Of a stretch of DNA of 64,000 bases, positions 57,067 to 63,176 are shown piece after piece; position 1 is the stretch's first letter, and each line of letters begins with the position of its first letter. Source of the DNA: Haplosporangium gracile (taxonomy: Eukaryota > Mortierellomycota > Mortierellomycetes > Mortierellales > Mortierellaceae); the NCBI GenBank assembly GCA_015499985.1, contig JAAAUF010000049.1, forward strand, positions 20,725-84,724, read 5' to 3'. The translations under genes were made by a program, and so were the position numbers. Under the pieces are notes generated by a model. That model made no database searches. It was not told the origin of the DNA and worked only from the letters and a program-made list of their open reading frames with translations.

Positions 57067-57573
57067 CGAATGTGTCCTGTGCTGTCTCTGTGTGAAAGGG
57101 TGAGTGGGGTACTATGTGCGATGTGAAGTAAAGTGGGGGAGTGCGTATGTGTGTGCAAGAAGGAAGGAGTCAAAGGCGAGTGTGGGGAGTAAATATTGAA
57201 TTCAACGAAAACAAGGATCAACGCCAAAACAACCAAAAGGACGGACAAGGGCATACAAACGCGAGGCAAGTGTTTCATGCAACTCCCATGGGAGAGTTAT
57301 CAAAAAAAAGGAAGAAAAAAGACAGAACCTACGTCACGGCAAATGTGTGTGTGCAGGACAATGGACGCCATAATTCTTATTGGCTGAAGCTATGCAAGAG
57401 ATCTTTCCTAACATAAATCGACATTCACTGTCAATTGACACCATGAAATACTGGAAATCGGTACAAGGCACTCATTTGACACAATACGTTTATTCACTAG
57501 CATTTCGTCCTTCACCGCTCTCATTAAGGCCTTTGACTTGAAGAGAGGCGCTGTGTAACAAGGCTATTGTTTC
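57067..57573. other. Intergenic region
   Basis: 507 bp between two minus-strand genes: promoter of the 830-residue protein gene and 3' region of the next. No gene or distinct motif seen. Confidence 0.5.
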
Positions 57574-58652
57574 CTAAAGGTACTGGAACGAGCACTTTCT
57601 TTTCTTTTTAGTCTTAAGTGCGTTGTAAATCCTCTCAAGGAGGGCTGTTAACTGTGCCTCGCCGTCCTCGAATGCTTGGGTATTCTCGGCCGCTTTGGCC
57701 AATAAATCAGCCTCCCTCTTTTCAGTCCTCTGTCTCTGCAGTAAAAGAAGGAGCTGAGGCGAAAGAATCCTCTCCAAGGAAAAGTTAAGTTTGTTTTCGT
57801 CTGTGGTCGATTCCTCCGAGAGAGATGGGTCGCCCCTATAGCTGATCTCTATGTCGTTGTAGATCCTTGCCACAGGATACATGTGCTTACAAGACTCCTT
57901 TACCGCGTGTAATCACCGCAAGTGCAAGAGTAGAGACATGATAAATCCTCATTTGTGCTAACAGAATACGACTCACTGGGCCCTGAGAAAGATCTGACTA
58001 AAAAACATAATAGAACAGAGTGCGATGCAATAATTTAGAATATGATCACGAAGCCTATTTACCAGCATTGAACGCTTAAGGAGATTGTTTGAAAATGTAA
58101 GTACTTTTTTATGATGAAGCACCTCATCAATCATGTCCTTGGCATCAACAAAGGGTAGTGCCATTGCCTTGGTTTTTCTTGTCGCGGCAGATTCTGAGAG
58201 CGTTATGGGTTGTAGTTCACGACTGATCTTGTAGTATGTGATCCTGAAATCAATGTCCACAGATCCTTGTAATAAAAAAACCAGGCCATCTGGGCATAAA
58301 TCCCTCGTATATCCCAAGTATTGGCTCTTGAAGGGTTTGTGTCAACTTTCTACCAAGTTGTTGGTATTGATATGCTGGTTATTCTAATGTGTGAAATAAG
58401 GTGTAATTATTAGCTGAGTTGTGCTCAACATATACAGAGGTAAAAGCAAACAAGAGCACGTCTCACCTCTCTAAGGTAGAGGATCCATTCGATCAGTTTG
58501 GTTGGCTCCATCCAAGTTCTAATGTACGCGATAAGCTTTTTAGCGTGTCGAAATGACACTTGAAACTTCCTCCTCGCTTCCTGAAGCGTGGCCTCCAAGT
58601 CCGCTTTTCGAACGGCTTTTAAAGAAGGGTGCATCCTGTTACTATCCTCCAT
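57574..58652 (-). CDS. Unknown helical protein, 260 residues
   Basis: Exons 58652-58467, 58326-58063, 57997-57977 and 57885-57574 join in phase (a 21-nt microexon encodes SDLSQGP). The product is mostly alpha-helical: VRKADLEATLQEARRKFQVS, EWILYLRESQYLGYTRDLCP, DAKDMIDEVLHHKKVLTFSN and a C-terminal coil (LLLLLQRQRTEKREADLLAK, LLERIYNALKTKKKRK) ending in a basic tail. No signal peptide or membrane segment. I do not recognise the family; the size and helix content recall small subunits of multiprotein complexes, but that is only an impression. The second intron acceptor (cttcaag) is inferred from phase. The gene lies next to a Fanzor relic. Confidence 0.62.
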
Positions 58653-59658
58653 CTTTTTTTTGTTTTTTGAAGAAAATGGTCCCAATGTAAAATATAAATT
58701 CCAGTCAAAAGCAAGTACAAATTCCAAATGCTGATTAAAAGTATCAACTTTAGCAAGTGATTATATGTTTGACTTTTGTTGCAACGCTTCATTGTTTACT
58801 TACATTGTGCAGTTCTCGTAATTTTCGCTCCCACGCTTGTCTCACATGAAAGGCGCAAAAGTAAATCTCCACTGGAGGAAGCAAGAATGCTTTCTTTACT
58901 GCTTCGGATTTTGCAACAGAGCAGTCCACCATGAACTTGGAAGCTATGCAGTCCGCAATCAGTTTTCAGCCAGGTTAGCCATTCTGTTATTATGTAACTA
59001 TTATTGGACAGAGTTTTGAATGAGAAAAAAAAAGAGAAAAAAAATAAAAATAAGAATAGTCAGTCTCGATAACTCGAGCTATATCACAATGCTACTGCCG
59101 GGAGCATGCACAGTGTGGTGCAGGTGCATGGTACAGGCGTGGGCTGAGTTGTTTGTGCTCTCCTTTTCGGCATCTACGTCTGTTTTTCCTGCTGTCTCTA
59201 GGACATCTGTTTACCCCCTTCAATCTTGACATGTTTTTCCCTTTACATCTGCTTGTACCTTTTGTACATTGACATGTTATTATCCCTTTCCTCTCGTCCT
59301 GTACTCTTCTTGCTCTGTTCCTTGGCCTTGTCTTTGTTTTGTCAAACTATACAAATCCCCCGCTTTTCGTCATCGTTCCCTTTTTCTTCATCTTGCAATA
59401 AAAACATCTCAGCCTAATAACTTCACACATCCCTCTTGTTCACACTCTTCTTCACTTTCTCTCACCCTCACCTACCTCCGGCCCAGGACCTGGCAGGAAC
59501 AATAAAACATATTTGAGCGCAATCTCACCTTGATTCCGAGCTGCATACCATAAATGCAATCGGTATGCCGGTTTTTACGACTTTCAATCCTTGACGAGAA
59601 TATCAAATAGGTATGCGGAAGTGAATACTTTGTCGTTTTCCCGGCTTGGCTTTTATGA
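58653..59658. other. Intergenic region before the Fanzor relic
   Basis: About 1 kb with several short open frames on the + strand (for example 58837-59019, 59226-59417) but no motif. The expected N-terminal and RuvC-I parts of a Fanzor protein are not visible here. A stretch just upstream of the relic (about 59618-59679) in a different frame reads SFSRLGFYDLIVLFFK and may be a frame-shifted piece of the same gene. Confidence 0.4.
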
Positions 59659-60033
59659 TTTGATTGTTTTATTTTTCAAGCCCTATCTCTTGGCTACAAC
59701 ATCGTTGGCGTTAATGAGTTTTACACATCCAAGAAATGCCCGACTTGTAAAGAGTTCGTTGGCCAAGTTAACCTCCGCCGACTTTATTGTACAAAGTGTC
59801 AAAAGTACATGCACCGCGACATCATGGCTGGCCACAACATCTGTAATGCCATACGAGGAGACTTGCTTGAGCAACATCGGTCACTCTACCTCCAACCCCA
59901 GGACAATGACAGAAACTATCCTTGGATGCAGGACAAGCGCAGTCCCAGGCCACGCCCTGGAGGGTCTGGTGCGAAGAGGGAGTCAAACGAAACGCGGATG
60001 AGTGGACAAAGTCAAATCAACCAAAAAAAGTAG
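59659..60033 (+). pseudogene. Truncated Fanzor (eukaryotic TnpB-like) nuclease, C-terminal end
   Basis: The open frame encodes ALSLGYNIVGVNEFYTSKKC followed by a TnpB/Fanzor-type zinc ribbon: Cys-Pro-Thr-Cys at 59737-59748, 13 residues, Cys-Thr-Lys-Cys at 59788-59799. Next comes YMHRDIMAGHNICNAIRGDL, which fits the RuvC-III block (Arg-Asp then Ala-x-x-Asn) of IS605 OrfB/TnpB proteins, and then EQHRSLYLQP. In TnpB and Fanzor this block carries the last catalytic Asp of an RNA-guided DNA nuclease. Upstream the frame meets a stop (59656-59658). The rest of the roughly 500-700 residue protein (wedge/REC, RuvC-I and II) is missing, so this is a relic and not an active enzyme. Possibly inserted long ago with a transposon; no terminal repeats were identified. 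Confidence 0.72.
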
Positions 60034-61388
60034 CAACGTAGATGTTTCTTATTTTAGTATGTAGGCCCAATTTGTGTATTAGCGAATACATGGGGCTGTG
60101 GGAGGGTGTGCGATTTACTCACTTCGGTAACCTGATTGTGCACCCATTGTCCTGCAGCCGCAGTGGGTGGAAAGTCATGTAATTAATCACTCGTTATAAT
60201 TTTGACTCAAGTTTAGGGATTTTTATCTAGGAGCGCAGTGTTGTACCGCATCTTGATGGCGCAATTTATCCCTTTCTCCCAACCATCCAGTCCTACTTTT
60301 TCCTCAGAGACTGCAGTTTTAAGGTATCCTTGTTATTTTTCTTAATTTTGGTTGAAGCAACAAAAAAGAGAGAGGGCGCCTTAGAAACCGAGTAAGAATA
60401 AAGTGTACAGTACCATTTACTCAATGTTTGCCAGACCGACGGCGGATGGCGTGCCGCTTGTTTCTATAGGTTCCCTCATACATGCATGGACTTTGAAGCG
60501 GCTCCTTAAACACATATCGCATGAGCTTTCTTTGAGAATCCAATGGCGACCCCTCTGTGAACGAGAAAATATATCCATTGTCGACATAAAAACTAGCACC
60601 CATGCAATCTTTTTGAAGGCAGACAAACGGTTGAAAAGCGAGGCTGGGAGACAAAGAGAAATGGGATGAGATGAACGTGCTATGAGGATCGCATAATCTT
60701 GGCCTGCCATCATACTAGAGGAAAGAGAAAAAGAAAACATGAAAGAAAAATGACGAGAATAGAGAGAATTTGAGAGAGAAAAGGCATTGTGAATTTGTCC
60801 TCCGATCTCGTTCTTTTTTTTTTCTCGTACTATTTCAGTTGCCGGCATCGAAGTTGAGTTACCAGGCCAGACCTATTAAAAGTCCGAGTGTGAACAGAGC
60901 GTGGGACATTAAGAGGTAGACCTTCCTTTTTGAGCAAGCATCCTTGGAAAAGCGACAGGTATCGAAGAACTTAGGGGAAATGTTTACAGTTTGGCCGTTG
61001 AACAACAAACAAAAAGTAAAAAATATTCAATACCAGCTTTCCTCGTTTACTTAATGCCTATCGGTCCTTCAGCTAGTCCGACCTCGACAACAACCTCCCG
61101 CCCCCCAGCAGATGACATACAGATGAATAATAATGAATAATAATGGCTCGTCACAAACGGTGCCTCAAGCTGTATTTTGTATATAATGGACATGTTACTC
61201 CCTCGCATTTCGAGGGGGTTTTTTTTCTTGCTTTCCTCAATCCCTCCGACAATTTCCTCCGATTCCCTCTCTAACACCTTGGTACCACATAAACAAATTA
61301 CCAATCTGTAACCCAAACCATCCACTTGCATCCATCTGCATTATCTGTCCCCCCTTCACATAGCATACACACATTAATCACACAGCAA
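60034..61388. other. Intergenic region with a possible small exon
   Basis: About 1.35 kb. On the minus strand 60968-60856 follows an acceptor-like cccctaag and reads FFDTCRFSKDACSKRKVYLL then MSHALFTLGLLIGLAW and a stop, which looks like the end of a small membrane protein; I could not place its first exon with confidence. Frames at 60403-60669 (+) and 60848-60417 (-) overlap each other and lack motifs. The last 200 bp are promoter of the MFS gene. Confidence 0.4.
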
Positions 61389-63176
61389 ATGGTCGCAGCA
61401 CTAGCAAACAAGGCAACCAATGATGTCGACCAGACCCCTCGCACATCCTGCGAGATCATTCCTGCCTACGCCGTCTACACCCCCCGCGCCCCCTCATCCC
61501 CAACCTCGAGCCCCGAAAAGTACACAAAGTCAACCGCCCCTTCCATCATCGGTATCAGTCAGTCGCCAACCCTCGTCGACATCGCCGACAGAGCCCCTGA
61601 TGGCGGTCTCCGTGCCTGGTTGGTTGTCCTTGGCAGTTTCTTGATCCACTCATTCTGCTTTGCTCCCACGGAGTATATTTTTGGTGTCTTTGAGCAAAAC
61701 TACCTCGAGATCTTCCCTACCTCAACCCATGGATCTATTGCGTTGATTGGCACTCTTGGTTCATCCTCGACCTACTTTGCTGGCTTCATCAGCGGTGCCT
61801 CTGCCGACAGGTTCGGCTACCGTACCACCGCCCTTCTTGGAACTGGTATCATGACTCTAGCATTGTTGCTTGCTTCCTTTGCCAATCAAGTCTGGCAGCT
61901 CTACCTGACCCAGGGTGTCCTCTTTGGTATCGGTGCTTCTTTGGTTTACTATCCAGCGATCGGCGCTCCCTCGCACTGGTTTGATGCCAAACGTGGTCTT
62001 GCTTTGGGTTTATCTGTCAGTGGAACTGGTCTCGGTGGACTGGCACTCGCCCCTGCCACTCAAGCCTTGGTTGATACCGTTGGCGTGAAGTGGGCCCTCC
62101 GCGTCCTTGCCATTGTCAGCATTGTTATCTGGTAAATTTGCCTCTTTCTTGTCTCCTGTTCTTGGTGCTCATGCGCGCGAGTGCGCTAATTTTTTTTCGA
62201 TCCTAATACCATGGCCCTCATTACCTCGTCGAACAATAGCGGTACCGCCAGTTTCTTGATTGTCGAACGCGAGAGTGGAAAGAAGGTACCTGAGCCCAGT
62301 CGCGAGATTACCGACCTCGAGCTCAACGAGATGAGCGAGAAGCTCTCGCAAAGGACCAAGCCTACTGGTATTTTTGGTTTCTTTGCCGAGCTCAAGGTCT
62401 TCAAGGACCCCCAGTTCCTCTCGCTCACTTTTGCCGAACTTGCTGCCTCAATTGGTTTCCTCATCCCCATGTACTACTTCCAGAGTAAGTCTCTCTCTTC
62501 TTCTAGGAAGTCCATGATGCATGTACGCGCAATTAATCCCTCCAACTATCCTCACTTTCACTATTGCTAACCATTCCAATTAACCGTTTATCCCATTATT
62601 TTTTTCTCCAAAATAGCGTACAGTTTGTTCATCGGTCTTACCGCACAAGATGGTGCCTTGATCGCCGGACTGTCAAGCGGCGCTTCCTGCCTTGGAAGAA
62701 TCACCCTCGGTTTCGCCGCTGACCGTCTACCCAAGACCGCCGTCGTCAGTTTCTGTGCCTGGATGACCGCTGGCTCGATCCTGATCATCTGGACGCTCTC
62801 GAAATCGTTCGGCGTCTACCTCGCCTTTGCTCTCGTCTACGGCTTTTTCGCCGGTGGTTACGTCTCATTGGTGCCCTTGGTCATCTCGGAGACTTTTGGC
62901 GCACATCAACTGTCGACCGTAATCGGTTTCATGTACGCCGCCAGCGGTGTCGGTATGTTGGCTGGCGCCCCCGTTGCCGGTATGATTCTTGGCGCAACTG
63001 AACCCAACCTCTCCTATCTGCCCGTCATCATGACCGCCGGAGGAACCTTGCTCCTGGGAGCGATCTGCATCTCCGCTTGGGTCTACTTTAGACGATTGGA
63101 CAAGCAGACCAAGAGGGATGAGATTGCGGCTGCATCCGCTACTGCTTCTGCTGCTTCCAACGTTGCTAAACGCTAA
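61389..63176 (+). CDS. MFS transporter, monocarboxylate porter-like
   Basis: Exons 61389-62131, 62240-62484 and 62617-63176 join in phase to 515 residues. After a cytosolic N-terminus of about 75 residues (with the family motif APDGGLRAWLVVLGSFLIHS), six membrane helices are followed by a charged central loop (SREITDLELNEMSEKLSQ) and six more. Motifs: SGASADRFGYRTT and SCLGRITLGFAADRLPKTAV (the MFS loop 2-3 signature in each half), and AGGYVSLVPLVISETFGAHQ. The DGG(Y/L)RAW start and ADR motifs are typical of fungal monocarboxylate-type porters (Mch/MCT group). The substrate is unknown; some relatives carry carboxylates and others riboflavin. The acceptor of intron 1 is gaacaatag at 62231-62239. 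Confidence 0.9.

Follow-up and report, generated by a model that had tools for sequence, protein, structure and literature searches.

A dead transposon in Haplosporangium gracile keeps what is probably the last exon of an XPG-Fanzor1 fusion gene

The 64,000-nucleotide (nt) stretch of Haplosporangium gracile DNA analysed here, called the window throughout, contains at 59659-60033 (+) a frame of 124 open codons that looks like a fragment of a Fanzor RNA-guided nuclease, which raises the question of what the fragment once belonged to. We consider it probable that the window holds a dead, internally deleted transposon whose Fanzor exon once closed a gene that encodes, in uninterrupted relatives, an XPG/FEN1-type nuclease fused to a Fanzor1-type nuclease, with the guide, target-motif, flap-trimming and MULE-transposase roles proposed below. 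Sequence or models back the fusion frame, the mostly kept acidic residues of both nucleases, both predicted folds, the inverted ends, the 8-base-pair (bp) duplications, a fixed TGACGTCA motif in the left flank and a conserved 3' hairpin region.

The frame carries a SLGYNIVGVNEFYTSKKCPTC-x13-CTKCQKYMHRDIMAGHNICNAI zinc ribbon (CPTC-x13-CTKC) followed by MHRDIMAGHNI; the window piece holds just the TS-C4-RD part of the Fanzor1 signature. Its best family match is Pfam PF07282, Cas12f1-like_TNB (E=6.5e-12, 45.9 bits against a cut-off of 26.3), and it matches NCBIfam guided_TnpB at E=6e-8 and 32.4 bits, under the cut-off of 100 of that full-length model. The exon is laid out as follows.

59680..60030 (+): coding sequence of exon 5, with which the XPG-Fanzor gene ends
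59716..59718 (+): codon of the relocated RuvC glutamate (E-alt), 6 residues before the first zinc cysteine, placed from the sequence by a rule found in a section of PMC10711439
59737..59799 (+): CxxC-x13-CxxC zinc ribbon, from the sequence and PF07282
59818..59820 (+): RuvC-III aspartate codon in the HRD motif, from the sequence
60031..60033 (+): stop codon

In the same genome (37.5 Mb in 1157 contigs) the frame has 52 matches at E<=1e-3; genomic counts given here are of matches, and some contigs hold more than one. Among 14 sequences (13 copies and the window) substitutions per codon at positions 1, 2 and 3 are 0.264, 0.179 and 0.606, an excess at third positions. This count leaves out L012, L013, L015 and L018 by choice, L021 and L025 for want of the motif, and L016, where the motif differs; the start of L020 is out of frame. 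Because there are 52 genomic matches and the differences are in excess at third positions, the frame is not a product of chance. Weak side matches such as C1_1 (E=3.3e-4, under its cut-off) could be read as signs of an unrelated zinc-ribbon host gene, but this explanation is refuted by the TNB/TnpB family match, the repeat family, the inverted ends and the Fanzor1 fold of relatives, and its probability is practically nil.

A sequence-only reading had taken the frame for a Fanzor relic left by a past insertion of a mobile element, with fuller relatives elsewhere in the genome. The Pfam and NCBIfam matches, the 52 genomic matches, an uninterrupted copy on contig C129 and the structural matches of relatives to solved Fanzor1 proteins bear this out. 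Beyond the view of that reading lay the XPG/FEN1-type nuclease that the intact gene encodes as well, and the MULE-like transposase relic on the element's other strand.

Why, then, does the frame break off upstream? The same reading had placed a probable frameshift near 59680, and here it was mistaken, as the site is the 3' splice site of intron 4, lying at a deletion junction.

59670..59679 (+): residual 3' end of intron 4 together with the deletion junction; the acceptor has changed by mutation to CAA|G

An AG stands directly 5' of the A/V-R-S-L-G-Y codons in 19 of 20 other copies (16 TAG, 2 CAG, 1 AAG, allowing a register shift of 1 to 3 bases in some rows), the sole exception being L016 with TTG, and the public gene models P0028 and P0007 splice at the same place; the window reads CAA|G. 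Of the six copies with long DNA matches to the window, four begin to resemble it at 59670-59672 and two at 59685-59686, and the opposite strand just upstream of the exon is MULE-like transposase up to 59673. The acceptor AG in the copies, the splicing of the gene models, the start of similarity and the abutting transposase therefore point to an intron end at a deletion junction; the acceptor in other copies and the junction rule out a frameshift inside an exon at 59680. Searching the window with the full protein (tblastn) returned no other piece of the XPG-Fanzor gene better than E=2.9. What the window retains is this gene's last exon, the others having been lost from it.

The whole gene can be followed on C129, where five exons form one frame chain without a stop, joined by phase-consistent GT-AG introns. 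In uninterrupted relatives the predicted fusion protein of about 1300 amino acids consists of an XPG/FEN1-type nuclease (residues ~1-290), a linker and a Fanzor1-type part with RuvC and zinc ribbon. The genome holds 64 matches to the RuvC part of a better copy and 30 to the N-terminal XPG part, and in 12 of 22 contigs with an XPG match, read by eye, a RuvC or zinc-ribbon match follows downstream on the same strand. The public model of C129, P0121, has its start in a transposase remnant with a SWIM finger and leaves out the beginning of the XPG part.

Both parts occur in one predicted protein in 22 of the 151 sequences compared, P0121 among them; 120 of the 151 stem from a search that, by its limits on length, excluded full-length fusions. 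The remaining 129 public models fall short of the joint criterion, and the joint gene is known from genomic sequence and gene models only, as would be expected if gene prediction had simply joined two neighbouring genes of one element. Yet the C129 exons make a single stop-free chain, and the joint model recurs in seven genera (Podila, Linnemannia, Gryganskiella, Entomortierella, Mortierella, Benniella and Actinomortierella) at ~29-60% identity where pieces align, which leaves the two-gene explanation very improbable. Protein searches gave 148 and 34 matches, many from metagenomes; the organisms named among 120 listed of the 148 and all 34 of the 34 are Linnemannia, Mortierella, Dissophora, Podila, Entomortierella, Haplosporangium, Gamsiella, Actinomortierella, Gryganskiella and Benniella, and we take the genera other than Haplosporangium to be Mortierellaceae. 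In the open-access literature (PubMed Central subset), judged by the titles listed, we found no description of a fusion between an XPG/flap nuclease and a Fanzor; XPG, Rad2 and FEN occur zero times in the main text of PMC3627910.

Are both nucleases built to work? In an alignment of 24 proteins the RuvC-I aspartate and the glycine at +2 are each present in 23 of 23 rows with a letter, as is the RuvC-III aspartate. The E-alt column, gapped in 3 of the 24 rows, has glutamate in 17 of 21 rows, the window included, lysine in three and glycine in one. In the XPG part the XPG-I region is present and 12 of 15 rows with a letter start with MG. We placed seven acidic columns by what we take to be the FEN1 active-site positions, and six are largely kept: D in 16/17, D in 21/22, E in 21/22, D in 17/22, D in 21/22 and D in 19/21 rows with a letter. 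Structure alignments match nearly the whole C-terminal part to solved SpuFz1, PpFz1 and GtFz1 at 11-16% identity, and residues 1-293 to XPG folds with the I-region at 12-17% identity in the alignments listed. Fanzor1 is defined, in a portion of Bao and Jurka (PMC3627910), by D-X(125,275)-[TS][TS]-X-X-C4 zinc finger-X(5,50)-RD; C129 has D993, TSKKC at 1219 and the HRD aspartate D1250, with a D-to-TS spacing of 226, and the family also shows the Fanzor1 type of carrier, a transposon with inverted ends and target duplications.

The likeness to Fanzor1 (SpuFz1, PpFz1, GtFz1) covers fold, relocated glutamate, C4 zinc ribbon, RD motif and D-X(125,275)-[TS][TS] spacing, and the family here also lies inside inverted-repeat DNA transposons with a conserved 3' end region. 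It differs in its length of ~1300 amino acids, against 600-700 for most Fz1 according to a passage of PMC11423790, in its N-terminal XPG/FEN1 nuclease, and in a RuvC-I motif that reads DGG, DAG or DLG, not DPG. With FEN1, XPG and EXO1 it shares the fold, the MG start, the XPG-I region and most active-site acidic residues, whereas its fusion to a Fanzor, its carriage by transposons and one unconserved acidic position set it apart.

In the window the exon lies within an element with the following parts.

~57349..60159: whole element, internally deleted, bounded by the left and right inverted ends and enclosing the MULE-like transposase remains (-) and the last Fanzor exon (+), from end models and patterns; its outer base is exact to within a few nt only
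57329..57336 (+): CTACGTCA in the left flank, a decayed match to the TGACGTCA motif with 2 mismatches, 1 nt off the register of other copies
57354..57376 (+): left inverted end, CAGGACAATGGACGCCATAATTC, by nhmmer at E=3e-4 on the strand opposite to the right-end profile
57499..59673 (-): broken MULE-like transposase with stops and gaps, by tblastn of P0152 (E=1.8e-32) and P0159 (E=4e-33)
60135..60159 (+): right inverted end, ATTGTGCACCCATTGTCCTGCAGCC, from end patterns

Flanked copies were fetched for 20 of the 52 exon matches, plus C808 and 40 short right-end pieces; the genome holds more. The ends are inverted, GGGAACAGGACAATGGRCGCCATAATT on the left and AATTATGGCGYCCAWTNTCC..CC on the right, and the right-end profile was built without 3 of 19 right ends. 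Genome scans gave 53 matches to the right-end pattern (reversed control 0) and 12 to the left-end pattern (control 0). The window's own left end came up in a genome pattern scan as C618:78077-78100, with 1 mismatch and no hit in the control. Look-alikes of the left end in L017, L023 and L028, which may be chance, were left unused. CCTG was dropped as the outermost base of the right end, since most of 20 further copies end ...CCAGCC or ...TGTAACC, with C827 and C487 as exceptions. At least 15 of the 53 right-end matches lie within 30 nt of a contig end, which suggests that young copies were collapsed by the assembler. Eight contigs (C714, C786, C981, C26, C95, C555, C709 and C942; L034-L041) start inside the right end, 15-26 nt before the motif, and young near-identical copies are therefore probably missing from the assembly. 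L018 (C749) and L021 (C217) represent a divergent lineage with another right terminus (..CCATTGCGCGGA / ..CCAATGCGCGGAT); C749, whose XPG part stays open over a long distance, may represent a second subfamily.

Fourteen left ends were compared with 41 right ends for target duplications. In two flank pairs an identical 8-mer occurs in the expected register, TCCTTCGT for C93 with C709 and TATCTTTG for C165 with C92. The 8-mer of C248 with C26 differs by one base and is given little weight; among 17 pairs with one mismatch it was the only one noted in that register, 16 further pairs making up the rest. In 11 of the 14 left flanks TGACGTCA recurs at a constant position (6 exact, 3 with one mismatch, 2 with two), with 3 nt between it and the duplicated 8-mer that follows, its background in the window being 0.0043 per site; L064 and L069 have 3 mismatches. 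No offset brings it to 3 of the 41 right flanks. An TGACGTAA-like site is conserved inside right ends (e.g. L019:5144-5160), while TGACGTCA marks the left flank. When C578 (L024) was compared with C416 (L054) as an empty site, likeness was confined to the left flank, 359 nt at 87%, with an abrupt stop near the element, and may reflect a segmental duplication or a broken empty site.

Does TGACGTCA mark a Fanzor target or only a place of insertion? We take it to be the known CRE/ATF palindrome, and it could reflect an insertion preference of the transposase, perhaps via tethering to a host bZIP factor at a CRE/ATF-type site, and no target-adjacent motif (TAM) of the Fanzor. TnpB TAMs directly adjoin the element, unlike TGACGTCA, which stands 3 nt and the 8-bp duplication away, and the TGACGTAA-like site could be bound by a protein; PMC3459987 names in its title such tethering, there of a protein derived from a transposase and to AP-1. 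The restriction of TGACGTCA to the left flank is, however, as expected for a TAM, and the two readings are compatible; we give the insertion preference slightly less than an even chance.

The transposase itself survives poorly. Its part at 59531-59673 matches at E=2.3e-8 (tblastn), and a foreign stretch at ~59005-59530 interrupts it, within which 59141-59285 is 95% identical to C812:23308-23452, near another XPG-Fanzor copy. Its homologues are 15 Mortierellaceae proteins, some named SWIM-type or MULE transposase; four were scanned, with a SWIM finger above cut-off in one (E=4.7e-5) and below it in another, and a MULE domain in three (E=3.2e-5 to 0.024, all under cut-off). A transposase piece lies upstream of the gene on the same strand on C129, and on the opposite strand in L013, L016, L017 and L023. 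Host-like frames, read by eye, adjoin the gene on the C718, C578 and C749 pieces, and on C467 the left end leads straight to the XPG start codon; this layout and the want of a match on those three pieces rule out a transposase in every element. We infer that a MULE-like transposase moves the family. The likeness to MULE transposases consists of the SWIM finger and the weak MULE-domain matches in homologues, and the difference is that relics only are found here. MULE elements typically make 9-bp target duplications, against 8 bp in the two exact pairs here. Similar carriers are the Mucorales MuDr-type elements ROr-4, PBl-3 and MCi-4 with Fanzor1, described by Bao and Jurka in 2013 (PMC3627910), in which Fanzors also sit in fungal elements with MuDr-like inverted ends; they have no transposase, which seems to be missing from some copies here too, and have 9-bp duplications instead of 8.

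Between the stop codon and the element end lie 117-126 nt (L019, L043 and the window), and in L043, a young right end, the XPG-Fanzor C-terminus stands just before the end (P0123, E=9.6e-8). This interval contains two features.

60065..60096 (+): hairpin at the upstream side of the conserved 3' region (GCCCAATTTGTGTATTAGCGAATACATGGGGC), fold of -9.5 kcal/mol, from the subfamily consensus fold
60070..60154 (+): conserved 3' region with a terminal hairpin around CTTCGG, a candidate guide-RNA scaffold; cmsearch 59.5 bits, E=1.3e-12, with modest support for its pairing

A covariance model built from 17 sequences, the window among them, gave 26 matches at E<=1e-3 in the 26 pieces supplied, 17 of which had been used for building. 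In the window subfamily (six sequences) double changes affect 5 of 28 predicted pairs, with a slightly unfavourable covariation term of 0.45 for the fold, and RNAalifold on alignment A2 of copies gave no structure. The hairpin count took in 21 copies, 12 of them without the anchor (other subfamilies), after L044 and L048, cut by contig ends, had been dropped. Seven of nine anchored copies in a second group, some of them near-identical, share an upstream stem of 6 bp, a length reached by 7 to 21 of 500 shuffles; at one pair five of the seven have T-A and two C-G, and at the next G-C and A-T occur. L027 has G-C at the first of these pairs and a 4-bp stem (175 of 500 shuffles as long), and L024 a 3-bp stem (357 of 500).

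The conserved region might be transposase-binding terminal DNA and no guide RNA: it closes with the inverted end, the terminal hairpin shows weak covariation, and Rfam has no match in the window, L019, L022 or L027. But conservation reaches past the inverted end to the upstream hairpin with its double changes, and position and layout fit the Fanzor1 guide RNAs described in a section of PMC10711439, where the inverted repeat is folded up as part of the scaffold. We therefore regard the DNA-only explanation as unlikely, if far from negligible; the 3' region is a candidate guide-RNA scaffold.

Several observations weigh against the picture of a mobile fusion nuclease with its own guide. The relocated glutamate is absent in 4 of 21 rows, the seventh FEN1-like acidic position has E in only 9 of 22, and the XPG model reaches an overall predicted template modelling score (pTM) of 0.49. 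RuvC-I reads DGG, DAG or DLG in the nine sequences inspected, not DPG, which has been described as near-exclusive in Fanzors; we take DPG as a common, not a required, feature, because a passage of PMC10432273 reports D383 and N385 for SpuFz1 itself. Exact in-register duplications number only two, L055 and L045 share an exact 8-mer off register that we ascribe to chance, and the window copy has no recognisable target duplication. The C718, C578 and C749 pieces have no transposase match. In the terminal hairpin 72.2% of cells are paired against 71.0% in shuffles, 51 of 500 shuffles being as high, and covariation is weak.

How might such an enzyme serve its transposon? Copy-back has been discussed for TnpB and Fanzor, in a portion of PMC10432273. 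Here, excision and insertion would fall to the MULE-like transposase for which some copies, that of the window among them, code. The 3' region would be transcribed as a guide scaffold, with right-flank sequence becoming the guide. An empty site would read TGACGTCA-N3-[8 bp]-flank, while at an occupied site the element end precedes the right flank, so an enzyme using the motif and a right-flank guide would cut empty sites and spare occupied ones. The Fanzor part could in this way find the empty site after excision, or an empty allele, and its RuvC domain would cut it; the XPG part may then trim the displaced strand or the 5' flap and thereby tip repair towards copying the element back. We tentatively suggest, at a little under even confidence, that Mortierellaceae transposons encode a two-nuclease RNA-guided enzyme in which Fanzor1 finds the TGACGTCA-marked empty site by its right-flank guide and the fused flap endonuclease processes the displaced or nicked strand, one polypeptide targeting, cutting and processing ends for copy-back.

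Fanzors are RNA-guided nucleases of eukaryotes, and fusion to a flap nuclease hints at which DNA structure follows the cut, giving the copy-back model a natural, testable handle. A recognisable candidate target-adjacent motif and the 3' region make the system testable without guesswork, and the natural XPG-Fanzor fusion is of interest as a genome-editing architecture. The window relic itself is ordinary; its family is not.

Beside the element, a frame at 61293-62135 (+) encodes an MFS transporter (PF07690, E=3.9e-15), and the frame at 62571-63176 looks like its continuation.
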